Shown here: piece by piece, positions 1-42,798 of the stretch | Numbering within the stretch: the first letter of the stretch is position 1 | How the letters are laid out: each line of letters starts with the position of its first letter | DNA from: Chlorella sorokiniana | Lineage: Eukaryota > Chlorophyta > Trebouxiophyceae > Chlorellales > Chlorellaceae | Assembly: GCA_025917655.1 (NCBI GenBank) | Contig: CP084616.1 | Location: 186,001 to 250,000 of the forward strand | Direction: 5' to 3' | Length of the DNA: 64,000 nt | The notes under the pieces: generated by a model | What the model saw: only the letters and a program-made list of their open reading frames with translations | Database searches by the model: none | What the model was told of the DNA's origin: nothing | Position numbers and translations under genes: made by a program

Positions 1-2452
1 CGCCTGGACTACGCCCTGGCGCCGCTGGTGCGTGGGCGGGGGCTGGAGGGGCTGGATGCCCCCGTGCGCGTGGCGCTGCGCATGGCCCTTTACGAGCTCA
101 CCGAGCTGAAGAGTGAGTGGGAAAGGGGAATCTTGAATCTTCTCAAATACATAAAAAGTCAGTTGGGGTTTGCACTAATCTGTTCTGCAGTGATTGTTTG
201 CCTGTTTGTTTCATCACCCGGCCTCGGGCTGGCGACCCCTCAGCAACAGCACTGCACGCCATCCGCTCCACGCCCGCCCCGTGCCCCCTGCTCTGCAGAC
301 GCGGGCTACGGCGTGATCGACAGCTACGTGCAGCTGCTCAAGGGCGCGGTGCACCAGGGTGCCGCCAACCTGGCCAACGGCGTGCTGAGGTGCGCGCTGC
401 AGCCAGCCTGGCGGAAGGGGGTGTGGTGTGTGTGGTTGTGTGTGGATGTGTGTGTGTGTGAAGGGGGGCGGGGGGCTGCTGCCTCCCTGCCGCCCTGAAA
501 GGCCGCTGAGGACCCTTCTGTTGTGTTTCCACGTCATGAGCCAGTCTTCTTGGCGCATCGTTTGTATTGTCCACTGTGCTCAAATGCTAACTTTTCTTAT
601 CAATCAGTGTTCTCGTTGCTCGCCGGCTTCTCTGCCCAGCAGGAGCGCGGTGCGGGCGCTGGAAGCGGGCGACCTGCGGCAGCCGCCGGCCCCCGCCCGC
701 GGCCAGCCGCCGCAACAGGTGGCTGAGGCGCTTGCCATCGGCGCCTCCCACCCCACCTGGATGGTGGCGGGCTGGCTGCAGCAGTACGGCCCCGCCGCCA
801 CGCTGGCGCTGCTCAAACACAACAACGCGTGAGTGGTGTTGGCGCCGGGCTGAAGCGGGCGGGGCTGACAGCGCACCAAGCATGGAGGGCGTTGCGGACG
901 CAACCTTCGTTTGAAGGCTGAGAGGGCACTGATGCGTTGACTGGTGCCCTGGCACATCAACAACAAACTGAGGAGAGCTTTCTGCTCTCCACGCCCGCTG
1001 CAGGCGGCCCCGCTTCTCTCTGCGCCTGTCCCCCGGCGTGGATGCGGGGGCCTTCTGCGAGCGTCTGGCAGCGCAGGGCGTGCAGGTGGGCTGAAGCTGA
1101 TGGCTTTGCCTTGGGCAGTCGCCCCCGGCTGGAAAAGGGGCCGATGATGTGTTTTTCAGGAGCCACCCAGCTTACACCAAGCAGCCCAACTGTACCTCCC
1201 CTTCCTTCCCTTTCATCACCTCCTTGCCCCTCTTCCCCCTCCTCCTCAACCCCGCAGGCCTCCCCCTCCCGCTTCCTGCCAGCGGAGTTTGTGTGCGTGG
1301 GCGACCGTGGGCTGCAGGGGCTGCTGCGGGAGGGGCTGGTGGCGCGGGGGAGGCGGGCGTGCAGGTGCGCTGCGCGCGCTGCGCCTCCCCGCTCAGCATG
1401 CTGTGGTTGGGAGCTGCTGTGTGTTACAAGAGTGCTTACCGCTGCCCACCGCCCTGCTGCTGCTGGATCTGGCCGAGGGCATCGGGCGCAGGTCCGCGCT
1501 GGGTTGGGGGCGTGCCCGCCAGGCTCCCCTGCTCGCCCAGCTGCTCTGCATGGGGCCCTATCAAATACCTGTGGCGCGAGAGGAGCTCAACTCTTCTTGC
1601 TACTGTGCCAGAATCAGCGGCTTGTATATTCTCCTTGCTCGCCATGCCCCACGCTGCGCCGCGCTGACCCCACCGCTGTGCAGGACGAGGCAGCGGGCCT
1701 GGTGGTCGCCATGCTGGACCCGCAGCCCGGGGAAACGGTGCTGGACGCGTGCGCGGCCCCAGGCGGCAAGGCGCTGCTCGCGGCGGCGCGCATGCGGGGC
1801 CGCGGCCTGCTGCTGGCCCTGGACGCCTCGCGCCGCCGCCTGGCCTCCCTGCGCCGCGCGGCGGAGGGGCGGAGCACGGCGGGGTGCTGCGCACGCGTGC
1901 CGCCGACCTGCGGGACTTCGCCACGCAGCGGTTTGTGCCGCACGCGGCGCCCAGCGAGGAGGAGCGGGCGGCGATGGAGCGCGGCGGCGGCGGCGGCGGC
2001 AGCGACCCCGAGCGGCGGCACCCCTGGCAGTACGATCGCGTCCTGCTGGACGCCCCCTGCTCCGGCACCGGCGTGCTGTCCAAGCGCGCCGACCTGCGCT
2101 GGCGCCGCACGCCGGCCGACGTCCGGCAGCTGGCGGGGCTGCAGGGCGAGCTCCTGGATGCGGCGGCGGCGCTGGTGGCCCCGGAGGGCTGCTGGTCTAT
2201 GCCACCTGCTCGCTGGAGCACCAGGAGAATCAGGCACAGGTGGCGGCCTTCCTGCAGCGGCACCCAGGCTTTCAGCTGGAAGCGCCGCCACCCAGCGCGG
2301 GAGTGCCAACACAGTGCCTGGACGCGCGCGGCTGCCTGGCCATGCTGCCGCACGTGCACGGCACCGACGGCGCGTTTGCGGCGAGGCTGCGGCGGCGGAA
2401 CAGCGGCGGGGGCGAGGACAAGGGTGGTGGTGGCACTGAAACCGCAGCTTGA
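1..2452 (+). CDS. RsmB/Sun-like 16S rRNA cytosine-C5 methyltransferase, 3' part
   Basis: Partial gene; the start lies before the window. Exons read as 1-112, 299-389, ~643-828, 1004-1085, 1258-1363 and 1684-2452. The first exons resemble the NusB-like N-terminal domain of RsmB, including a SHPTWMVAGWL segment like the ASHPSWL motif. The last exon is the Rossmann methyltransferase: SAM loop DACAAPGGK near 1740, DAPCSGTGVL near 2050 and YATCSLEHQEN near 2200. The cysteines of the PC and TC motifs are the two used by RNA m5C methyltransferases. The family methylates C967 of small-subunit rRNA; in an alga an organellar ribosome is the likely target (inference, no N-terminus visible). Two one-base shifts are needed, near 1868-1880 and near 2185 in a G run; otherwise the domain is complete. 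Confidence 0.85.
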
Positions 2453-3391
2453 TTGCTTGCGGGGTGTGAGAGAGGTGTGAGCCGATGGCTTCACCCGGAT
2501 GTAAGCCGCAGGTTCCAAAGCTCTACATGCTCTACATGGGGGCAAGAGAAATCCTTAGAGGTGCTAGCGGCTGCTGCGCAGCCACATCTTCTGCTCTGAA
2601 TGGGTTGTCACGCTTGATTGAATTGTCAATCACCAGAACTCGCTGAGCCTGGTCCGAGCGGCTTTCGTTTGCTGGGAGCATTGTTTTGTGTCTGTGTGAC
2701 ATCGTGCAAGGTGCGCTGCCTTGCAAGTGCGCAAGGCAACGGGGAGGAGCTGCATCATTGCAGTGGATCCAGCGCTGCTCGGTGGCGTGCCTGTGCGCTG
2801 GGCCATTGCAGCCTAGCCGTCGCGTCAGGCCAAAACCGGCAGCTTCGCATGTTTTGCCGCCAGCCCTGCCGAGCGGGCGAGCGCCAGCAGGATGCACAGG
2901 CTGGCCTGTCGGCTGCCGTCTGGTTTGCCGGGTGAGGCCTGCCTGCAGTACAGGTGATATCATGTAAGCCGAGAATGACTGCAATGCCGCACTGCAATGG
3001 CGTGACGGTGGCAGTGCGCTTGGTGCCGCTCAAGTAGGAAATGCAACCAGCAACGCTCCCAGCCCAGCTCCGGCATCTCACCTCCAGTGGTGCCGTTGCG
3101 CGTATCAGAGCGCCGCTCCAGCTTGCTTCAGCACCGCCTGACCACTCCTCCACCGCTTGTTTTCACGGCCTGTCAGGATGAGAAAGGGGCCAATCAGCTG
3201 GGTGGGGTACTTGTGCCCCGCTGCCACCTGCGACGCCTCCTGCCTGCCCACCTGCTGCCGTTGCCGCCTGTCGCTTGCCGTGGCATGGCCCTGCTCCTCT
3301 CCTCCAGCTTCAGCAGCCTCTTCAAGCTGCCACCTTGCTCAAACGGCCCCATATGCCAGCCCCTCCCGGCTGATGCTGCGGCGCCGCCGCC
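2453..3391. other. Convergent intergenic region
   Basis: This stretch lies between two genes that end toward each other. Short open frames on both strands have no family signature and no paired splice sites. Nothing else is seen apart from the TGTAA motif at 2500. Confidence 0.5.
2500..2504 (+). promoter_or_regulatory. Possible TGTAA polyadenylation signal
   Basis: TGTAA lies 48 bases after the methyltransferase stop. This pentamer is the known chlorophyte poly(A) signal. A five-base match is weak alone; position is the main support. Confidence 0.35.
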
Positions 3392-5309
3392 TCATTCGGC
3401 GCCTGACTGCCTCCGACGCTGCTCCGCCTCGCGCTGCGCCAGCCTGGCGTGGCTGTACCAGGCGAAGCCCAGCAGGGCCAGCGCGCAGCCTGCCGTCATC
3501 TTGGGGGTGAACTCGCTGCGCTCGCCTGCACGGGTCATGTGGTGGTGGGTGTGCGCGGCCTTGAAACAACAATTGTAGGATAGAGGTTCAAGGTCTGCAG
3601 CATCTCTGGTCCCAACCACCCACTGCAATTGCCATACAATTCTCCTGCCATCCAACCGGAAGCCCGAAAGCAGCAGCAGGGCCGGGATTTCGGCATCCCG
3701 CCACCTCATGTGCCCCACCCCCGCCGCTTCCCACAGCGCTCACCAAGTAAGAAGGCGGACAACAGCAGCAGGGCGAGGATCTTGAACTCTCCCACCACCG
3801 TGGTGGCGACGGCGCTGATGCGTCGGATCATGAGCGAATGAGCCAGGTTGTAGCAGAGGGCCACCGCCGAGGAGAGGAGCATGAGGCGGAGGGCGGCGGA
3901 GCGGTGGGCGGGCCAGTAGGCATGGAAGGCGTCGCGCTGCGGAAGGGGGGCCACATGAGGGTTGCTTGCGACCGTGGCATCTCTGGTGGGGACCGGAGGG
4001 GCGGTGCCATGCCGCTGCGAAGCTGCCGAAGCAGCAAGGGCCATGCCCCAACCCGCAGCAATGCCGGCGGGCACGCCGTTTCCCGCCAGCCCTTGGCTCC
4101 GGGCCGCCAGCAACAGCACGAAGACCGAGCTCACGACCATGATCAGGCTCAGCCAGCCGCTGAGCCCGGGTGCAGGAACGAGATGTCGGCACAGCCGGCT
4201 GGCCGCCGCACCTCGTACGCATAGAAAAAGGGTGCCAGGCAGGCCAGAGAGACGGGGGCCACGTAGAAGCCGAGCCGCACCACATCCAGCTTCTCGCTGC
4301 AGCCAGGGTTGAAGAGAAGGACAGAAAGTCGGCCGATACAGGCTGGCAGCCCCGCCGCATGCAGCTCTATGCTGATGTGTTAGCGGGGCAAGCAGCGGGA
4401 GCAGGCCGCAGGCGACAGAAACGCGGCACGGAGGGGGCGGCAGCCCCGGTGCCAGCTGCGCCCGGGCCCAGCGGGCGGCAGCGCAAGTGGGGACACAGTC
4501 ATGCTGGAGCGTTTTGGTGAGGACGCAGAGGACACAGCCCACCTCATCAGCTTGCTGCTGAAGGTCATGAAGCCGCCGTTGCACACGGTGGCGGCCATGC
4601 AGCAAGCCACCGCATACGGGCGCCCGTTGAGGCTGCCCTGCCACACCGCCATCATGACGCCCAGCGACAGCGCCACCAGCGACGCGGCCTCTTGCCGGCT
4701 GGGGAACTTGGATTCTATCAGCACCGCCATGGCACAGGCCACCACGGGGATGGCGGAGCTGCAGAGAGGAGTGAGCGGGCAGGACGAGTGCAGGTACAAG
4801 AGCGTTGGCAGAGTGCGCTGGCCGGGGTTGCGGCAGCGCTGCGGCTGGCCGTGCGGGAAGCAGGACTCAGCATAGTTGCCACCAACGCCGGCCATGCAGG
4901 CTACATGCCCCCGCACCGAATGATTTGGTTGAGGGAGAGCGAGATGTCGAGCAGGGAGATGTTGTTGAGGGCGATGTTGAGGGCCATGAAGGCCCCGATG
5001 CACATGATGCCGCCCCACTGCTTGCCCAGCGCACGGCGGTGCTGCTCCCAGCCGTGCAGCAGCGCCACCGGGGCCAGCGCGCCGAAGCTGAAAGCCATGT
5101 GACCTGGCAAGGTCACAGGGGGCAGGCGCGGGCAGGGCTCGGCGTCAGCAGGCGACGGCCAAACGCACACAAGGTCGCCGCCCCAGCGGCGGTAAGCACG
5201 GAGAGCGGCGACAGGGGTGGCTCACAGGAGGAGAGGAGGAAGGGGAAGCGGAAGCCGGCATGGCCCAAGGCCCACTTGTTCAGCAGATTGAGCGAGGAGT
5301 TCAAGCTGC
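3392..5309 (-). CDS. Triose-phosphate/nucleotide-sugar transporter family (DMT superfamily)
   Basis: Multi-pass transporter of the TPT/SLC35 type, probably exchanging a nucleotide sugar or phosphorylated sugar across the Golgi, ER or plastid membrane; the substrate cannot be told. Exons run down from about 5309 (NLLNKWALGHAGFRFPFLLS), 5103 (SLLDISLSLNQIIR), about 4757 (SAIPVVACAMAVLIE), about 4297 (EKLDVVRLGFYVAP), about 4163 (SGWLSLIMVVSSVFVLLL), about 3940 (AVATTVVGEFKILALLLLSA) and about 3530 (FTPKMTAGCALALLGFAWYS). The final motif is the classic TPT C-terminus. Splice phases join in frame, for example SSC-HMAF and FSSKLM-SEKLDVV. The N-terminal start is unresolved: a CAG precedes the first recognised exon and no in-frame ATG is seen before HMAFSF. 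Confidence 0.8.
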
Positions 5310-21116: not shown

Positions 21117-24100
21117 TCACTCCCGCTTCTTCGCTTCCACGCTCTTTGAGGCTGCAGACGGCCCGCCAGCGCCTGTGGCCAGCTCCAGCGCCGCGGCCTC
21201 CGCGTGCGCCTTGGCTGCATCCTGGCGCTCCCCAGCCTCCTGCTGCTCGCTCCGCAAGAACTTGTCCGAGTGGACTTCTGTGGCGGGCACTTGCACGAGG
21301 AAGGCGGGCACGCCGCTGCACAGCGCAATCTCTTCCGCATCTGCGAGCCCATGGCAGGAACGGACGCGGGGTTAGAAAGAGTGGGCTTTGCTGCGGCTGC
21401 TAGCAGGGGCAACCTGCCCTTCCAGCCAAACAAACCTAGGCAGCACGCGCCGGCCTCTCCCACCCACCCAGCACCTCACCCGGCGGCAGGTTCAGCCTCT
21501 GCAGCAGCGGCTGCCCGTGGTCGTCCAAAGGTGGCAGCACCGCCGCTGTCAGCTGGCCGCCGTACACGCAGCTGTGTCCAGCCCGGTGGCGGCGGGGCCC
21601 AGCTGGAGGCGCCTGCAGGCATGCGGGCAGGCCAGGGCTGGGGCGGTTCAGACCCACCTTGCAGGGCGGTCAATGCGCACACATGATTGTGTAAAACACA
21701 GACGGCCATGGAACGGAGGGCCACGGGCAGCACATCCAGCGCCGCATGACCGCCTGTGATGCTCCTGCCGCTGGCCCATGGGCAGCGGCGCAGCACCAGC
21801 GGGCGAAACATGGCAAGAACAAAACAGATGGGTGCTCACCGCTTGGCATCATGACCGAAGAAGACGTGGGGGGCCGCGCCAAATGGAGGCCCAGGCCCGG
21901 CCCAGCGGGTTGGGCACCTCACGCGCCTCCAGCGCCAGCGCCGGCGGCAGCAGCGCAGGCGGGGCGGCGGCTCCGCCGCCGCCTCCGCCGCCGCCTCCTC
22001 CCCGCCCTGCTGCTCCGGGGCTCCCCACCCGCCTCCGCCCGGCCCGGCTGCCGGCCGCCGCCAGCACACCCAGCGCGGTGCTGGCGGCCTCCCAGTCGAA
22101 GGTGGCAGCGGGCAGCGTGGCGACGTCGGCGCCATCCGCCAGCGCCGCCGCCGAGGCGTCGGCCGTGGCGGCCGCCGCCGCCGGGACCACGTCCCGCATC
22201 TTCTCCATGTCTTCCATGCTCTGCAGCTCCAGCGGCACCCCGGGCACCAGACCCGCATGCACCAACACCACGCCGTAGGCCGGCAGCTGCTCTCGCAGGG
22301 CGGGGCGGCAGCGCGGCGGGCGAGGCACGGCGTCAGCAGCGTGCAGCGGGCTGGGAAGGGCGGGGCGGGCGCTCGGCCCCGAGCCCGCTGCAGCAAGCTT
22401 TGGGCACCTGCCGCCCCTTGGCAAACGCGTGCTGCCGGCAGTGCCACAGGCCCGGCAGGCTGCATTGCAAGAACACCCCCAACCCCAACACAAAAGAACG
22501 CGAAGCCTGCTTGCATCACACACATACAAACACCACCCCCAACACACACACACGCACACACACAACATCCTTAACATACACACACACGCACCCCACCCAC
22601 CGTCAGCGTGTATGGCAGGGAGGCCAGGTAAGCGGCCAGGCCCTCCTCCAGCCCCGCCACCCAGCCGTGCTTGTCGGGCTTCGGGATGTCCCGCCCCTCC
22701 AGCCAGCAGCGGAAGGCGCCGTAGGCTGCTCACGCACGATCAGCGGGCAGCAGGGGGGCCAGCAGGGGGTTGGAATAAAGAGCCTCAACACAGGAGCGGG
22801 GTACTGCGCTGCGTGGCAGGCTGTGCAGATTGACCCTGCTGCCGCCCGTGCCAAGCCAGCCTGCGCTCTGCTTGCCAGGGCAAGAGGCGGCAGCGGCTGC
22901 GCACGGGCGCAGCGGCGGCCCTGGCTGGAGGGCAGCAGCCCCACCCTTTTCCCCGCCTTGCTGCCCCCACCCAGAGCCTCCTCGGAAGCAGGGCCCCCAC
23001 CTGAGTCGTCGTGGTTGCCCCGCACTGCCTGCATGCCGTTCTCCAGGGCCATGCGCAGCACCTGCACGGCAGGCGCACGCAGGCATAGCAGGGACTCTCA
23101 ACAGGGCCAGACATTGGAGCCAGCAACCGACCAGTCAGCTCTCCGCATGCACTCGCCGCCCTGGCGCTCCGCACGACCCGCCGCCGCTCCGAGAGGCCCA
23201 ACAGGTCGGGACTGCGGCGGCGGTCTGGGATTTAGGTGTGCACGCCAGCAGCCCCCGCTGCAGGCTCGGCAGCCAGCGGTACCGCCCTGGCCCACCTGTA
23301 CCGAGTCGGGGCCCTTGTTCACCAGGTCCCCCACCGACAGCAGCAGGTCCACCCCTGGCGGTACCGCACCCTGTCCAGCAGCGCCTGCAGCTCCTCTGGG
23401 GACGGAAGCGGGGGAGGGGGTTGTGCAGCAGAGGATGAGAAGAACCGGGGGAGGGGGTTGGGTAGCAAAGGAGGAGAGCACCAGGAAAGAGGGTGCAGGG
23501 GCGAGAGCGGGTGCTTGGGAGCGCTCGCGCACGCACACGGCCGTTGATCCAAGGGCGCACAGACAAGAAGGTGCCCAAGAGAACAGGGGGAGTGGATGTA
23601 CCGCTGTGGCGCAAGCGGAGACCCTGTCTATCTGTCAGGGAAAGTGTCCAAGAGACCTCTCCCCCTGACCAGAAGATGGCGACAGGCGGCAGGCGGCAGG
23701 CAGCTTCCAGCGGTCAGCGGCCGGCAAGGAGTGCGCACCAGCGCAGCCGTGTATGTCGCCCACGATGATGACTCGCTTGTAGTTGGTGGTTGACGGCGGC
23801 AGGCTCACATGCGGGCGCCGCGGAGGCGGGTTGCCTGCAGGGGGCAGAACCCGTCGGTGTGTGGGGTGCTGGGCAGGGGCGGGCGCATGCCAAAATTACT
23901 GCAGACACACCCTCTGCAGGCTGCTTCCCACGCAGCAAACACATGGCGGCGCGTCAGCGGCCCGTACCAGCCGATGCAAAGCATGCACGGCGGCAGCGTC
24001 CCACCGTAGGGCGTGTGCAGCTCGACGCCCCGCCGCTCCTGCAGAGCAGCAATGGCTCGCTGTGCCAGGATGATCGCGCCGCCAGCCACGACGAGGCTGA

Positions 24101-24122
24101 TTCCGATGCCTTCCTTTATCAT
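21117..24122 (-). CDS. Membrane-anchored ApaH-like (PPP-family) metallophosphatase
   Basis: Calcineurin-like phosphoesterase of the eukaryotic ApaH-like phosphatase group, whose members include yeast Ppn2, an endopolyphosphatase. Start ATG at 24122 opens with a hydrophobic helix (GIGISLVVAGGAIILAQ), a likely signal anchor. Metal and phosphate motifs in order: VIIVGDIHGC (exon ~23834-23730), LSVGDLVNKGPDS and VRGNHDD (~23400-22999), KHGWVAGLEEGLAAYLASLP (~22740-22600), VVLVHAGLVPGVPLE, FFGHDA (~22290-21842) and CVYGGQLTA (~21640-21480). The tail is long and charged, ending KSVEAKKRE. Every catalytic GDxHG, GDxVNKGP, GNHD, VHAG and FGHDA element is present. Single-base shifts are needed near 23360 (G run), 21875 (C/G run) and about 21570. 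Substrate could be polyphosphate, dinucleotide polyphosphate or capped RNA. Confidence 0.85.
22519..22600. repeat. CA-rich microsatellite in a phosphatase intron
   Basis: Interrupted (CA)n tract on the plus strand, lying in the intron between the exons ending at about 22600 and starting at about 22290. Similar TG tracts occur near 9530 and 26961. Confidence 0.75.
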
Positions 24123-24310
24123 CTTTTTACTACACTTCTTGTTGAACTCTTTATACTATCCTTCTTGTTACACAAGGACAGCGGGAGGGCCTGCAACAGG
24201 AGGGGCGCCAGCAGCAGGGCGGCGGCGGCTTGGATTGGCGGCAGCCACTCAGCGCCCACCCTCTGGGCGGCGCTGCTTTCGTTGCTTGCAAGAAAGACGT
24301 ACGACATCAT
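24119..24310 (-). CDS. 63-codon ORF overlapping the phosphatase start (ATGA)
   Basis: An ATG-initiated ORF (24310) with one hydrophobic span (PPIQAAAALLLAPLLLQALP) ends with a TGA at 24121-24119 that shares bases with the phosphatase ATG at 24122-24120. It may encode a small membrane protein, be an upstream ORF regulating the phosphatase, or be chance in GC-rich DNA. No family recognised. Confidence 0.35.
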   Translation of the reverse strand: MMSYVFLASNESSAAQRVGAEWLPPIQAAAALLLAPLLLQALPLSLCNKKDSIKSSTRSVVKR

Positions 24311-24668: not shown

Positions 24669-25693
24669 ATGTTGAGAAGTGTACTATCGCGGCGCCTGCC
24701 GCAGGCCGGCGTCGCGCTCCTGCCGGGCCTGCCCGGCGGCGGCAGCTGGGCAGCAGCGGCGGCAGTGGGCGCGCTGCACACCTCGGCCCCTGCAGCGGCC
24801 AGCGTGCAGGTCAAGATCCCGGCTCTTGGAGAGAGCATCTCAGACGGCACCGTGGCTGCGGTGCTGAAGCAGGCGGGGGACAGGGTTGAAGAAGACGAGC
24901 CCATCCTGCAAATCGAAACGGACAAAGTGACGGTGGACGTGCGGGCGCCTCAGGCGGGGGTGCTTGAAGCAATCCTGGTGGGTGCTGGCTGCCAGGCCGA
25001 GCCAGGCCCATGCCCGCTGCACACGCTATGCGACACAGCAGCAGTGGGGGCCGTAAAGGCATGCGAGCGTGGTTGCCTTTCTTGCGCCCTCATTCCCCAT
25101 GTTGGCATCGTATCGATGATGGCCATGTTCTTGTTGTGCAGGTCAAGCCAGACGACAACGTGGAGGTGGGGCATGTTGTGGCCAGCATCAGCGACAGCGA
25201 CGCCGCCGCACCTGCGCCCGCGGATGCGGAGGCCCCAGCAGCGCCGAAGGCCGAGCCGCCAGCAGAGAAGCCGGCCAAGGCACCCAAGCCGAAGAAGGCG
25301 GCGGCTGCGGCCCCCCGCCAAAGCCAGCAGCGTCGGCGCCGGCGCCGGAGCACCCCCCGCCGCCGCCGCCCACCGCACGCCGTCCATCCGCTTCCCGCCG
25401 CGCCGCACCCCGGACGGCGAGCTCATCTCGGCGCTCCCCCGCAGCGAGGCGCAGAGCCTGCTGGCGCAGCTGTTGGGCGGCGGCGACGGCGAGGCTGCCG
25501 CGGCTGCGGGCGGTGCGGCGGCGGTACCGCAGATACCGGACGAGTACCGCGACATGATTGCGGTGCCCATCGTCGGCGGCTCCATGCCCATTCTGCGCGG
25601 CCCTCCGGTGCCCGCGGGGCCCCGGGGCCCCCTCGCCGCACCATGAGCGACCGGGAGATGGAGGCCATCATGCTGGGAGGCGCAGACCCCTGA
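24669..25693 (+). CDS. Mitochondrial E2-type lipoyl domain fused to a KGD4/MRPS36 tail
   Basis: Exon 1 24669-24977 and exon 2 25142-25693 join in frame (EAIL-VKPDDNVEVG). The Arg-rich presequence ending near LHTSAPA indicates mitochondrial import. Residues ~45-120 form a 2-oxoglutarate dehydrogenase E2-type lipoyl domain: PALGESISDGTVAAVLKQ, then IETDKVTVDV with the lipoyl lysine in DKV. An Ala/Pro/Lys hinge follows. The remainder matches KGD4/MRPS36, the E3-recruiting subunit of the same complex: HRTPSIRFPPRR like PHTPLIRFPDRR, and a C-terminal MSDREMEAIMLGGADP like VSQEEMEFIQRGG. No E2 acyltransferase domain is present, and no DHRxxDG motif is seen down to the next gene. Two one-base shifts are needed, at the C run near 25310 and at the G/C runs near 25617. 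Confidence 0.8.
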
Positions 25694-26331
25694 TGTCGCC
25701 GCAGGCTGGGCGGCTGCCAGCCGCGTTTCCGGTGGTCTGCCCGGTTGCGGTCCGTCCTTGCACGGGTGGTCGATCGTTTCTTGGCTGGACCGCGGCTGCC
25801 TCCTCCGCTGCCTCGCGTTTCGTTTCCTCCCGTGTTGTTGAGAGCGCTGTTGCACCCTCGTACTGCCCCCACCGCATGCGCTGTGTGGGAGCTGTATTTT
25901 TCCTCACCCTTGTGTGTTGCTTTTCCTCACACTGCTGCCCTGCTCTGCCTGCCTTGCATGTATCCAGCCCCGCCTTCAGCCCTCCCTGCTCTCTCGTGCA
26001 AGTCTTTTGTTGGCGCTCACATGCTTTTTTGGGGCGGCGGCAGATGAAGGTGCTGCGCCCACAGCTGCCACCAGTTGACGCTTGCCTTGCGTCATCCCCA
26101 GACTGCCATCTCATTCACTCTTTGCTCCTGTAACATGCTTGAGCAAGATTAACAATGCTGCCAGGGTTCAAACATGGGTGGCAGAGCAACAGCTTACGCC
26201 AAGGCAGTGCGGGGACGAATCGGAATCAAATGGTATGACCTGGCAAGCAGCAATCGGTGGCATGTTCACTGATCATGCAGCCGCCAACAGCAAGAATGAC
26301 ACCGCCACTCGGAGCAGTCGCAGCCCCGCTC
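25694..26331. other. 3' flank and convergent intergenic region
   Basis: Long T/C-rich 3' region with TGTAA at 26129-26133 as a candidate poly(A) signal for the lipoyl-KGD4 gene. Open frames here have no family match. No lost E2 catalytic domain is visible. Confidence 0.45.
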
Positions 26332-28175
26332 TCAGCCCTTTAGGAAAGCGCGGCAGAGGGCGCGCAGCTGGCCCGCCTGCTCCGCCGCGGGCAGGGACGC
26401 CAGGGTGTCGCGCATGCGCGCGTAGTCGTCGGCGCCGATTCTTTCCTCCCGTGGCTCCGCCAGCAGCCGCACCACTTCGCCATCAAACTCGGGGTGCCCC
26501 TGCAGGGAGAGGGCCAGCAAGCAACTGCCTCACCGTCTGGATACAAACCACAGAGGGGGAAGGGGAGGACGGGGAAGGGTAGGGGCGCGCACTCGGGTGG
26601 ACAGGGAGCAACTCGTGTGCGTGGCCAGCAGCAGCGGTGTGAGCAGCGGTGTGAGCAGCTGCGGCGGCAGCTGAGGCTGTGCGGTTCAGGGGGCAGCCAG
26701 CTCCCAGCCTCGACGGCTTCCTCCGCCCGCCCGCCCCCGCTCGTTTCCAATCAGCAAACTCCCACACATTCCTTGCTTTCATTGTGAGAGTGAGCGTCAC
26801 ATTAAAAAGGCAGTATGAAGGCAAGCAGGGGCAGCCACGCACCTGCATGCACAGCACGTGGTCCCCCACCGCAAACATCTCCACAGGGGTGCGCTCCGAG
26901 GAGGCCAGCAGGGTGGCACCGGGGGCACCGCCAGCACCTGCCGGAGGTGACGGCGGCAAGAGTGTGTGTGTGTGTGTGTGTGTTGGGGAGGGGGATGGGG
27001 GGGGCTCATGCGCGTGCGTGAATAGCACTGGGGTGCCAGAGACAGGCTGCGGGAGGGCCCTCAGGCCGACGTTTGTAAAGCGGCGAGTCAGCGCTGCCTG
27101 CTGCCGCGCATGGCTGCCAGCCGGCGTCCACCCAGGCGGTACGCATGCATGCGGTACGGTTCGAGGCGGTATGCAGCGCCGCACCTGGTCCTGATGGAAT
27201 TCGAGCAGGCACATCTGGCGGGGCAGCAAGCCCGCCCATGCCGCGCCGCTCGCCCCCAGCGCCGCCGCCGCCTCTGGCTCGGCGTCGACGCGGCGAGCGC
27301 CCACCTCCCAGCAGCCGGCGCGGCCCACGGGGCCCCCAGCTCCAGGCCCACCAGCTGGTGGCCGAAGCAGACGCCCTGCAGTTGCAGTCCAGCGACAGGC
27401 CGAAACAAGACCAGAACTATGGATGGAGGCAAACCGCAATGACAGAAGGTGGCCAACATGGACCGTCGGCAGGGCCGGACGCTCGGTCCGTGTACAAGCT
27501 CTTGAGGAAAGGAGCAGACAGGGGGTGGGGCAGCAGGCCGCGCTGCCCGTCACGCAGGCTGCCTTGCCCCCTCCTCACCAGCACTTGCTTGCGCTGCTCG
27601 ATGGCGGCCCTCACCGTGCGCCGCAGGTCCAGCAGCCACTGGTCGGTGCCAAAGGCGTCCGCGCTGAGGGGAGGGGGCGGCAGGGAGGGCGGCGCGGCGG
27701 GGGAGCCTGCCGTAAGCCAGCCACCAGGCGCGGAGCCGCACGCAACCCTTCCGAGGCTGGTGCTGACCGCAGGGCACGTTGGCGCTCCCAGGGCAGGCCC
27801 AAGCATGCGCTGTGAGGGCCTCTGGCTTGCTGCCAGCTCAGCTCACACGCTGCCAGTGATGACCACGCCCTTGAAGCTTGCCAGCTCCTCAAGCGAGGGC
27901 AGCTCCCCCTTGAAGGCATAGTACACGCGCCACTCCTCCCCCGCCCCGTCCTCCCGCAGCAGCTGCAGGAACATGTCCTCAAAGGTGCCCTTCCTGCGAT
28001 GCAGGGCCAGCCAGGCGGGGCAGCCCGGGCGGTGGCAGCTCGAGAAGCGGCGGTGGCGCCAGCGGCGGGTGTGCAGGCTGGGCAGGGCAGTTCGTTGGCT
28101 GCCGGGCAGGCCGCCTCACTTGTCAGCCACATCCTGGTCGGGCTCCCCAGCCACTAGGATTGCGTACTGGGCCAT
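26332..28175 (-). CDS. Gamma-glutamyl-peptidase-like class I glutamine amidotransferase
   Basis: Resembles plant GGP enzymes, which cleave gamma-glutamyl groups from glutathione conjugates in the cytosol. ATG at 28175 (MAQYAILVAGEPDQDVADK); exons then run 28175-28121, 27993 to ~27857 (FEDMFLQLLRED, ELASFKGVVITGS), ~27666-27558 (DAFGTDQWLLDLRRTV), ~27390-27187, ~26941-26843 and ~26500-26332. The nucleophile cysteine is in GVCFGHQLVGLELG. MCLLEFHQDQ matches the IIKCHQDEV segment. The catalytic His/Glu region is GDHVLCMQ-GHPEFDGEV. The end LCRAFLKG matches the GGP tail. One-base losses near 27325 (C run) and 26932 break the frame. Length, about 250 residues, is normal. Confidence 0.88.
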
Positions 28176-38616: not shown

Positions 38617-41600
38617 ATGGCGGCAGCGGAGGCCGAGGGGGCTGTGTCGGGGCGACCGCTGTGCAGCCGGCTTCCTCTCCCTCAGCGTCGCTGGAGCGGG
38701 GCCGCACCCGGCTGGGAACTGCGGCACACCGCAAGGGCCAGCCCGTACAAGGCGACAGGAAGGAAACCGTTGATGGAGACAAAGCCGGTGAGACGCGCTG
38801 CTTTGTGGCCGCGCTGGCCTGCTGTGCGCTCGCGCCTGTGCGCCGGCCCCTGCCAGCTCATTGACCGGTGCCCTGCCCCCGTCTGCAGGTCGCTCCGCGG
38901 GCGACAGGTGTCCCTCCTGCGGCGCCAAGGCGCTCACCGGCCAAGAGCTTGTCATCGCCCGCAAGCCGGGCGACGCAGCCAGCGCGACGCAAACGGTGCG
39001 CTGATGCCCCGGCTGCGCAGGGCTGGGGCCCCGCGCGGCTGCTGCTTCCCAGTGGCCCTGCACCGCCACTGCTTCTTCGCTGAACACGCACGTGGAGGTC
39101 TCGCCCTTTGCCGTGGCTGCCGCACCGGCTTGCCCCCACCGGCAACCCGCGGCTGCCTGCCCAACCTGCTCGTGATAGCGTTGCTGTGTCCTGCCGCGTG
39201 CCCCAGATCCCCGCAACAGGCCCGAGAACCTGGTGACCCTGGAGTTCCTGAGGCAGCACATCGTGGTTGCCAACATGAGCTTGCGGGTGGGCGGGGGCGG
39301 CAAAGGGAGACGGAGGAGAGGGGCCCAGCCCGCTGCAGCCGCGGCGCCCTCACCGCCGCCTCTTCGCAGCGACCTCAGCGGCCGGAGCGCGGATCAGCAG
39401 CCAGCCGTGGCTGTCTAGCGGCTGTGTCGCCCTTGCCCTGCGCTTCTGTAGCCCACTTTCTTTCTTCCTGGGCCCCTTACTGCAGGACATTGGGATGTAC
39501 CACGGGTACACGATCTCCACCCTCTCCCGCCGCGCCAAGTGAGCGTCGCTGCGCTCTTTTTGCGCGAGCGGCCGCCTTGAGCGGTCGCAACGCGCAGCTG
39601 CCTGCGCCTGCCTCCTCAGAACCCCCTCAACCTGTGGTGGTGCATGGTGGGCCGCTGAATGCGGGCTCTTCGCGGTCCCCTGCGTGCAGGCAGTACGGCG
39701 TGGTTCTGAGCCACCGCGGGCGGCAGGCGCTCGAGGCCGGCGCCGCCGCGGCTGCGGAGAGCCAGGGGGCCGCGGCCGATTCAGATGCTGAGGGCACAGA
39801 AGCCGCTGCCGAGGGCGGCCCAGGAAGCAAGGGTGCCGGTGGCGCAGGCAGGGCTGGCGGAGAGGCTGGGGGCCCAGCCGCCGAGGGCAGAGCAGCAGAC
39901 GAGGCGGGCCCAGCGGCCAGCCCAACGGCACCGGCGGCTTCCGGCAAGTTAATGGCAGCCAAGGGCGAGCAGCGCGGCAGGGTGGCAGTGCCAGCAGCGA
40001 AGACGGCGATGCCAGCCAAGCCTGCGGCAGCCAAGCGCAAGGCTGAGCCCTCTGGCACGTCTGGCAAACCCGCGCGGAAGCCGCGGCGCAGCGGTGTGGG
40101 CGGCACAGCAGGCGCCGCTCCTGCTGATGAGGGCGGCGTCAGCTACAAAGGAAAGCAGGTCCAAGTGCCCCCAAGGTGGAGGCAGGGGATTGGGTAGCGG
40201 CGGCGCTCCCCCTGGGCATCTCCTTGATGCGCTCCCTCACTTCAGTGCCGCCCTCGGCGGCGCTGCAGCCCCAGCCATCCATGTTCGAGGCCTGGGCAGC
40301 GCAGCACCAGCAGTCAGAGACGGTGGCCACGCAGCAGCAGCAGCAGCAGCAGGCGGAGCCGCAGCAGCAGCAGCAGCAGCAGCAGGAGCCGCAGGGCGAG
40401 CAGGGGCAGGGCGCCAAGCCGCGGGACCCTAAAAGCGGCAGGCGGCGGCCGCCCGCGGCGGCTTCCGCGCCCTCGCGCTGGGCGTCCCCCCGCCCCGCGG
40501 CCGCCGTCGAGCGCAAGGCGCTGCCGCCCGCACGCGGCGCCGCACCGCGCGCTACGACGACCTGGCGAGCGAGGGGGCGGCCTCCCGGGCGCCGAGTCTG
40601 ACGTGGACAGCGACGGCGTGGACGCCCTCAACTTCCTGGTCGCAGAAGCTCTGAGGGCCAGCCAGCAGGAGGAGGTCGCGGAGGGGGAGGAGGAGCAGCC
40701 GGGCCCCAAGCAGGCTGGCGGCTGGGCGTCGTCGCAGCAGGAGGCGCAGCAGGCGGCTGGGGCAGAGTGTGGCGGCGGCGGCGCCACGCCGGAGCGCCCG
40801 ATGCCGCCGTTGTTGGCAGCGAGGAGCAGCAGCCGCCGTCGCAGCCCGCCAGTCAAGAGCAGCCGCCGGCTCACGCGGGGCGTGTGTACCGGCCGCCAGT
40901 GATGCGCCGCCTGCCTGGCCCCCTGGCAGAGCCGGCCCAGCCCAGCGCTGGCCCGCTGGCCCGCCGCGATGCACCGCCAGCTGGGGTCCTGGAGGCAGCA
41001 GCTGCGCATGGCAAGGAGCCGCAGGGGGCGTCGGGTGCTGCAGCACCCGCGGGCGCCGAGGGGCCTGCACTGCCGGCCGCAAAGGATGCACGGCAGCGGC
41101 GGCAGCGGCACACGGCACCGGCGGCTGATGAGGCTCCCCGTGAGCAGGCGCCAGCCGGCCCAGCTCTTGCTGCGCAGGCGGCCAGCGCTGAGCCACCAGC
41201 CGCTGCCACCAGGCCGCAGTCTCGACGGAAGCAGAAGCCGGGGGCGTGCCGCCAGCGGGGCGGGCGGCTGGAAAGAACCGCTGGCAGGGGCAGCCGCAGC
41301 AGCGCCGGCCGGCAGCAAGCCGGCTCCACCGCTGGCGGCTGGCAGGAAGCCGGGCGCGGCGCGGCAAGGCCTCGGGGTCGGGTGCCGCGGCAGCAGCAGC
41401 ACGCAGCAGTGCGCCCTTGCTGGGGGCAGTGCCTGCCGACCTCGCGGAGCAGCGCCTGCGGTCGGCGGAAGGTGCTGGCGGAGCGGCGGCACATGGCGAC
41501 AGCGCAGCGGCGGCGCCTGCTGCGTCACCGGCCGCCGGCGGCAGCCAGCCACAGCAGCAGGCGTCAGCCAAGCCGGAACAGTGGCCTGAGAGCGGCCGCG

Positions 41601-42798
41601 GCCCACAGGGGGCCGCCGTGCAAGCCAGAGCTGCCCAGGCAGCCGCCCAAGCCCTGCAGGCAGCGCCGCCCCAGCATGGGGCGCCAGCCACTGCGGCGCG
41701 GCAGCAGCTTCATGAGCAGCAGGTGGAAGGGACGGCAGAGGAGCCTGGCCGGCCGCAGCGCGAGGCCGCCGCGGTCGAGGCGCCGTTGCGTCGCCAGCAG
41801 GGGCAGGCGCCCGGGTCCAGCAGCCAGGTGCTGCGTTGAAGCAGGATCCTGGTGCCGACTCGCATCGTGCCGCCACCGCCGCCACGGCGGCAACCGCAAG
41901 GGGCTGCCCGGAAAGCGCGGCACCTCGGCCCGGATGCAGCAGGCTGACACCCTGCAGGCTGACGGCCGCAGCGCGGGGCAGCAGCCGCCAATCAAGCAGG
42001 AAGCTGCTGCTTGCCGCGACGACGGTTGGGCTGGTGAGGTTGGTGCGGCCTCCGTCGCCCCTGCAGCAGCAGCCACGGAACCAGCAGCGCCAGCGGACGC
42101 TGCGGCATTGCCAGCAGTGTGGGGCACCGCATCCGCGCCTGCTGCAGCCGGGCGGCAGTAGGGGCGGCGGCAGCGCCTGCTTTGCTGGCAGCCCGGCGAG
42201 ACGTGTCGCCCACCTCAACGGCCTCACCAACCGCGCAGCCTGCCGCCTCCGCTGCCACCTCTGCGCCAGCGGCGCCGGCCCCGGGCCCCGCTGCCTCCGC
42301 AGCCCCGCCTGCGGCCCCCTCGGCGGCGCCCGACCTGGCCACGGCGGCGGTGACGGCGGCTGCCACGGCGCACGTGCTGCGCAAGGCCATGGCGGCGTTC
42401 CAGAAGGCCGACATGTGTGACGCGCAGGCCATGCTGCGACCCCTCAGCTGGCTGTCGGTGGCGGGCAAGGGCGGCGGGCTGCTGGCGGTGAGCGGGGGAG
42501 GGGGGCAGGTGGATGCGGACCGAGGGGCTGGCTTGTTTGGCTGCATGCCTGTAGCAGCCGGTGTGCTGCAGCAGCAGGTTTGGTGCCTTCAGCAGCCGGC
42601 CAGGGCATGAAGAGGGCTGGTGCCCTAAAATTCTTTGTGCCCGTCCCTCCTCTCCACCCTCCCCCGCAGGATTACGTGCGCCGCTGGCACAGCCTGCCCA
42701 GCGAGCTGCAGCACGACCTGTTCAGCACCTCGCTGCTGGTGGCGCAGCAGGGGGGCCTGGACCGCCTGGAGGATGTGTTGCGGCTGGAGCTGGGGTGA
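38617..42798 (+). CDS. Ala/Gln-rich protein with CPSC motif and possible helix-turn-helix
   Basis: Unknown family. Start taken at ATG 38617 (MAAAEAEGAVSG). Exon 2 (from about 38890) gives GDRCPSCGAKALTGQELVIA, a possible half zinc ribbon. Exons ~39213-39293 and 39486-39539 join as MSLRDIGMYHGYTISTLSRR then KQYGVVLSHRG, which looks like a Psq/resolvase-type helix-turn-helix. A very long Ala/Pro/Gln/Arg low-complexity region follows, including poly-Gln (40331-40386) and an acidic ESDVDSDGVDALNFLVAEAL segment. The C-terminal exons (donor near 42489, acceptor before 42671) give HVLRKAMAAFQKADM, YVRRWHSLPSELQHDLF and LDRLEDVLRLELG, a compact helical end. It is possibly a nuclear DNA-binding protein (inference). 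Several one-base shifts are needed, for example near 38652 and 40180, and the middle region is the least certain. Confidence 0.5.
40331..40386 (+). repeat. CAG repeat encoding poly-Gln
   Basis: Two (CAG)n tracts, split by AGGCGGAGCCG, encode Gln runs in the low-complexity middle of the Ala/Gln-rich gene. Frame and composition suit a disordered activation-type region. Confidence 0.8.

Follow-up and report, generated by a model that had tools for sequence, protein, structure and literature searches.

A predicted lipoyl domain-KGD4 fusion gene in Chlorella sorokiniana, encoding a candidate E3-tethering subunit of the 2-oxoglutarate dehydrogenase complex

Can one subunit of the 2-oxoglutarate dehydrogenase (OGDH) complex both tether E3 and carry a swinging lipoyl arm? 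The question is raised by a plus-strand gene of Chlorella sorokiniana in the 64-kb stretch C11:186001-250000 (hereafter the window, to whose first letter the positions below refer), which we analyzed together with searches of the 38.8-Mb genome in 15 contigs. The gene appears to join, in a single chain, a lipoyl domain, a hinge and the two ends of KGD4/MRPS36, and its sequence makes it likely that the product would work as an E3-tethering OGDH subunit with an extra arm.

KGD4/MRPS36 was proposed within the last decade or so as the replacement for the E3-binding domain that eukaryotic E2o has lost, and the original Kgd4 paper is said to be that of Heublein in 2014. According to PMC9974300, MRPS36 in mammals was modeled, with cross-link support, with its N terminus touching E3 and its C terminus touching the E2o core, and it stands in for the E3-binding domain missing from eukaryotic E2o. 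In Chaetomium thermophilum, KGD4 has been named E3BPo and is estimated at about four copies per 24 E2o; the KGD4 length is given as 130 residues in Neurospora and 135 in Chaetomium (PMC10203282).

The gene consists of two exons with the following features, in window coordinates.

24669..24977, plus strand: exon 1, with the ATG, a presequence-like start and the first part of the lipoyl domain; 103 codons, open from the ATG to the GT donor
24669..24800, plus strand: presequence-like N terminus, residues 1-44, with 3 Arg and zero Lys, Asp or Glu
24807..24977, plus strand: lipoyl domain, part 1, residues 47-103 (PF00364 match on the spliced product)
24924..24926, plus strand: codon of the predicted lipoylated lysine, K86, in ETDKV (from the sequence and alignment with solved lipoyl domains)
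24978..25141, plus strand: intron of 164 bases, GT..AG, whose splicing restores PF00364 over the junction
25142..25189, plus strand: lipoyl domain, part 2, residues 104-119 (PF00364 match on the spliced product)
25142..25693, plus strand: exon 2, with the lipoyl domain end, hinge, KGD4-like ends and TGA stop
25190..25370, plus strand: Ala/Pro/Lys-rich hinge, including the first frame change at the C6 run 25311-25316
25371..25406, plus strand: KGD4-like N-end motif HRTPSIRFPPRR, the E3-binding end by analogy (role from the model in PMC9974300)
25610..25641, plus strand: second frame change, back to the lipoyl frame, among G and C runs (placed at 25638 by the codon model)
25655..25693, plus strand: KGD4-like C-end motif EMEAIMLGGADP and stop, the E2o-binding end by analogy (role from the same model)
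26129..26133, plus strand: TGTAA, a possible polyadenylation signal by its sequence

The initial annotation of this locus, made from the sequence, had exon 2 run from the second half of a lipoyl domain through an Ala/Pro/Lys hinge into both conserved ends of KGD4. Exon 2 does hold the end of the lipoyl domain, the hinge and both KGD4-like ends, but the domain already starts in exon 1, which encodes residues 47-103, and exon 2 completes it up to residue 119. The fusion product has a predicted mass of about 28.4 kDa, or about 24.2 kDa without the first 44 residues if cleavage is assumed at that site. From the presequence-like character of these residues we infer that the protein would be targeted to mitochondria. 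The TGTAA downstream of the stop is of what we take to be the green-algal type of polyadenylation signal.

For the lipoyl domain, PF00364 matches residues 47-119 of the spliced product over profile positions 2-73 of 73 (70.2 bits against a cut-off of 22.1, E 1.3e-19), and on the domain alone it scores 72.8 bits (E 2.1e-20). The ETDKV turn is present and K86 aligns with the solved lipoyl domains; we take K86 to be the lipoylation site, as in lipoyl domains generally. As to type, the domain had been called an E2o one. When the N-terminal 160 residues were compared with NCBIfam, the three best families were indeed those of E2o (SucB_Actino 94.3, PRK05704 91.9 and sucB 87.9 bits), with E2p families trailing at 84.3, 67.7 and 51.5 bits; no family reached its whole-protein cut-off, as expected because the core domain is absent. 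The best solved structures, however, are pyruvate E2 proteins: 9y7v, so labeled, comes first (3e-32 for the chain, 68.0 bits for the best single domain), followed by another pyruvate E2 and then by the E2o 9njt at 61.0 bits. The domain therefore appears E2o-like, with a modest margin over E2p types.

If the fused domain is an E2o-type arm, is it the only one in the complex? The genome holds a separate full-length DLST, as the initial annotation had asked to be checked. This gene lies on contig C3 at about 834.8-837.2 kb on the minus strand (about 1270-4170 within C3:833500-839500, with a putative start). Read across its introns and frame breaks, it scores 509.2 bits with TIGR01347 (cut-off 378.65) and matches solved E2o at E 2e-117 over the lipoyl domain and core. 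Its own lipoyl domain scores 61.4 bits with PF00364, compared to 72.8 bits in the fusion, and has a two-residue insertion relative to the aligned solved E2o. Since DLST has a lipoyl domain of its own, the fused arm is additional and not the one that DLST lacks. The DLST gene has several introns, among them an apparent GC-donor intron after ETDK by reading of the sequence.

That no acyltransferase domain follows the lipoyl domain was upheld: the genome profile search with PF00198 gave at least 18 matches to core exons (20 scored candidates) on C3, C4, C7, C10 and C12, and none on C11. The E3-binding domain PF02817 has four matches in the genome, on C4, C7, C10 and C12, and none of the four is on C3, which carries DLST, or on C11, which carries the fusion. 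Among the lipoyl-type domains at seven loci, identity to the fusion's domain is highest in DLST (60% at 37.7 bits and 62% at 27.7 bits for two exon pieces); by single score, a domain on C11 with the biotin-type motif EAMKM comes first, at 39.7 bits and 34% identity. The intron falls after EAIL in the fusion and after KQPG and ETDK in DLST. Because these positions differ, the fusion is not a DLST copy with its introns kept, and we rejected a lipoyl domain freshly copied from DLST together with its introns.

How, then, is the lipoyl domain joined to the KGD4-like tail? In the sequence as is, the lipoyl frame reads from exon 1 via the hinge to EMEAIMLGGADP and only then meets a stop, a span of 286 residues, and HRTPSIRFPPRR with about the next 75 residues sits in the next frame. 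The one-base shift at a C run that had been noted for this junction is needed at the C6 run 25311-25316, but a second shift is needed as well, within 25610-25641. The two cancel, and EMEAIMLGGADP is therefore in frame with the lipoyl domain.

We scored exon 2 with a codon model whose training set was exon 1 plus exons of this genome that are supported by homology (1,216 codons). Exon 2 scores -54.3 bits unshifted and +27.6 bits with two shifts at a penalty of 6. The shift sites, 25313 or 25316 and 25638, are stable from a penalty of 6 to 15 (9.6 bits at 15), and a penalty of 4 adds two further events at the very end of the exon. In 60-base windows, the lipoyl frame is ahead in all five over 25142-25321 and again in both over 25592-25681; the KGD4 frame leads in all nine that span 25322-25621. 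Over the first five, the lipoyl frame scores +15.4, +6.6, -1.5, +2.2 and +4.9, compared to -14.9, -9.7, -13.9, -16.2 and -21.0 for the KGD4 frame. All three frames are negative in five of the 17 windows (25202-25261, 25292-25351, 25322-25381, 25352-25411 and 25592-25651).

DLST offers a comparison from the same assembly. By reading of the sequence, its gene contains three frame breaks of the one-base type in G/C-rich stretches: one in the hinge and two at G runs, GGGG and GGGGG. On the DLST exons with the first two breaks, the codon model shifts frame in both, once or twice in the hinge depending on the penalty; the shift at GGGG is accompanied by an exon-edge event that is an artefact of how the exon was cut, and the GGGGG break lay outside the model's input. 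Because the codon model backs the switches in the fusion gene and the DLST breaks are alike, one-base errors of sequence or assembly in G/C runs are the likely cause of both breaks. A tiny intron at either break was rejected by eye, as the GT..AG pairs lie merely 20-40 bases apart or so, and programmed frameshifting was rejected because it would need two cancelling shifts.

The assembly seems liable to errors in homopolymers, and this bears on any frameshift claim made for the genome. As a separate observation, 6 of the 41 matches to the light-harvesting family PF00504 (from 52 scored candidates) contain an in-frame TGA or TAG, one of them at C11:1173202-1173720, perhaps owing to unspliced introns or further sequence errors.

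The KGD4 identity of the tail is the weakest link in the argument: it is carried by the two ends only and is moderately supported. Both end motifs are found where they had been claimed, the C end directly before the stop. The window contains one copy of the C-end motif, and 150 simulated 64-kb windows contain none. It also contains one copy of the N-end core, on the same strand and 275 bases upstream of the C end; the simulated average for six frames is 0.55 copies per 64 kb. A DNA pattern for RTPxIRFP has a single match in the window and 0 in 100 shuffles. With yeast and human queries, we also ranked the ends by BLOSUM62 among all positions of the window and of 11 genome loci. Of 176,431 positions, the C end ranks first against yeast Kgd4 and fourth against human MRPS36, and the N end ranks third against human MRPS36.

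Elsewhere in the genome, the C-end DNA pattern has two matches in 38.8 Mb, the fusion gene and C2:2951591, the latter rejected as a second KGD4 because no stop directly follows the motif. Searching the genome with the KGD4-frame protein gave five matches, among which only the fusion gene is below E 0.1 (the four others range from E 0.146 to 2.05). Neither search found a second KGD4 candidate in the genome, where ends split by introns could escape them. In the PDB, the tail and its ends gave weak matches to unrelated proteins or none, and yeast Kgd4 gave one weak match at E 1.4.

Several observations weigh against reading the locus as a single lipoyl-KGD4 gene. Such a fusion requires blaming two frame breaks on sequence error. 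The hinge path from the C run to the KGD4 N end is poorly resolved and may run via the third frame: 25292-25411 has no positive frame, and the third frame leads over 25292-25351 by 0.8 bits. The two end motifs notwithstanding, PF10937 fails to match the algal tail, be it complete or truncated, even with E values of up to 10 allowed, and the N end is weak against yeast Kgd4, ranking only 309 of 179,138. The genome search with PF10937 was empty, as was its control. With a cut-off of 22 bits, this profile gives 104.9 bits to yeast Kgd4 and just 26.8 bits to human MRPS36, so PF10937 is near its limit outside fungi and a distant member would easily be missed. Relatives of the tail were sought in viral contigs and in the genomes of bacteria and archaea, and none was found there: the 591, 214 and 285 pattern stretches yielded none that was confirmed. 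The C-end DNA pattern gave no match in viral contigs and eight stretches in genome contigs, all dropped because none had a stop within the following residues inspected. There is also a precedent for error, since an annotated fusion of KGD4 with holocytochrome c synthase in Chaetomium thermophilum was called misannotated and the records have since been split, according to PMC10203282. Fused KGD4 gene models therefore deserve suspicion. A gene-model artefact is less likely here because the junction falls within a single exon and the last motif is read in the frame of the lipoyl domain.

With these points in view, the locus could be read in other ways. The position of the KGD4 N end off the lipoyl frame, with an upstream Met in its own frame, would fit two genes, adjacent or overlapping, of which one encodes a small lipoyl protein and the other a standalone KGD4 that starts independently. 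The arrangement is nevertheless very improbable, as the first stop in the lipoyl frame comes after EMEAIMLGGADP and this frame is shared by the KGD4 C end. Moreover, the codon model prefers the lipoyl over the KGD4 frame in all five 60-base windows of 25142-25321, so that translation from an independent KGD4 start in this region would run through an off-frame stretch rich in Arg. Two separate transcripts, which would have undone the initial annotation, are disfavored because the frame that encodes the second half of the lipoyl domain stays open, free of stops, up to and including the last KGD4 motif. If instead the lipoyl part is genuine and the tail is not KGD4, the gene would encode an ordinary small lipoyl protein whose Ala/Gly/Pro-rich tail carries coincidental motifs. 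The silence of PF10937, the rank against the yeast N end and the low complexity of the tail fit this explanation, but the two ends match in the right order with the second directly before the stop, simulated windows did not reproduce the C end, and the human protein clears the cut-off of the profile by little; we hold it to be quite unlikely. We give still less credence to a pseudogene in which the two breaks are real mutations. The coding signal is positive between the breaks and at the gene end, no second KGD4 candidate was found in the genome searches, the intron position differs from both lipoyl introns of DLST, which speaks against a simple DLST copy, and DLST, expected to be indispensable, shows breaks of the same kind.

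A further alternative accepts the fusion and concerns what the arm does: the extra lipoyl domain would be only a structural anchor or regulator, with E3 still tethered but acyl groups carried by DLST alone. DLST has a complete lipoyl domain of its own, and PMC10203282 raises unloaded lipoyl domains as possible anchors. From the Chaetomium ratio of about four KGD4 per 24 E2o given in that source, the extra arm would also be sub-stoichiometric. Against a purely structural role, the domain is complete, keeps ETDKV and outscores that of DLST with PF00364, as in a lipoylated carrier. We regard an anchor-only arm as possible but rather unlikely.

We favor a fused subunit that would tether E3 and bring an additional arm. 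For a complex of central metabolism this is probably a new combination of domains; at the DNA level its support is good except at the two breaks and the hinge piece. The initial annotation saw in it a new way to build the complex. The fused architecture is backed by the sequence and the frame analysis, but the fusion would add an arm rather than supply the sole one. Conserved residues and what is published on KGD4 lead us to infer that it would bind E3, bind E2o and be lipoylated. After import, K86 of the E2o-like lipoyl domain would be lipoylated. By the likeness of the ends to MRPS36/KGD4, the extreme C terminus, EMEAIMLGGADP, would dock on the E2o core and the HRTPSIRFPPRR motif would hold an E3 dimer. 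The hinge would keep the extra lipoyl arm beside E3, where it would either hand dihydrolipoyl groups to E3 or anchor it. Put more broadly, the arm may carry acyl groups, deliver electrons to E3 or serve as an anchor only.

Protein X (E3BP) of the pyruvate dehydrogenase complex and bacterial E2o share a chain order of lipoyl domain, E3 binder and core anchor. The fusion is best seen as the OGDH counterpart of protein X, a role already known: it would hold the same three elements in the same order, but it has no match to PF02817 or PF00198 (none on C11) and would serve OGDH. Bacterial E2o (SucB) resembles it in having an E2o-like lipoyl domain and an Ala/Pro hinge followed by an E3-binding element, whereas the fusion lacks the subunit-binding and acyltransferase domains. 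DLST of the same genome differs in its acyltransferase domain, its lipoyl intron positions and the lack of a KGD4 end. With KGD4/MRPS36 of yeast and human, the fusion shares a P-x-I-[RK]-F core at the N end and E-x-E-x-I-x-x-G-G right before the stop, with a variable spacer, and by analogy a predicted role in tethering E3 to E2o. It departs from that family in some 160 extra N-terminal residues (presequence-like start, lipoyl domain and hinge) and in lying below PF10937 detection; the Neurospora and Chaetomium members are small, and the passages of PMC10203282 on them mention no lipoyl domain. Among the matches listed from titles and abstract openings in open-licence PubMed Central, we found no report of a lipoyl-KGD4 fusion, which does not show that it is absent from print. 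We are evenly divided on a further proposal, that this algal lineage rebuilt the bacterial order of lipoyl domain, E3 binder and core anchor once the E3-binding domain had disappeared from E2o, joining an E2o-type lipoyl domain to KGD4 and so giving a dedicated lipoylated E3-binding subunit.

The gene is flanked by two minus-strand neighbors. Upstream, 22600-24155 contains GNHD and VGDLVNKGPDS stretches, which we take to suggest a calcineurin-like phosphoesterase; Pfam was silent on the four open reading frames tried. Downstream, 26332-27574 has a GVCFGHQ stretch, presumably of a class-I glutamine amidotransferase, and Pfam was silent on the three open reading frames tried, perhaps owing to introns. 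The G+C content is about 66%; positions 40001-42000 reach 75.5% with an AT skew of +0.29, and the remaining 2-kb steps range from 58.5% to 70.2%. Together with the abundance of light-harvesting proteins and the introns of DLST, the overall G+C content points to the nuclear genome of a photosynthetic organism of green-algal type. Rfam gave no match on the 64-kb window, and repeat and terminator scans returned nothing relevant to the fusion question.

If the fusion is true, each E3 recruited through it would bring its own swinging arm, and KGD4 function would be tied physically to lipoylation. It would mean that a second 2-oxoacid dehydrogenase complex has converged on the design of protein X, it would add one more lipoylated mitochondrial protein, and the role of extra lipoyl arms would become directly testable via one lysine. 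If confirmed, it would be a new way to build a central energy-producing machine.
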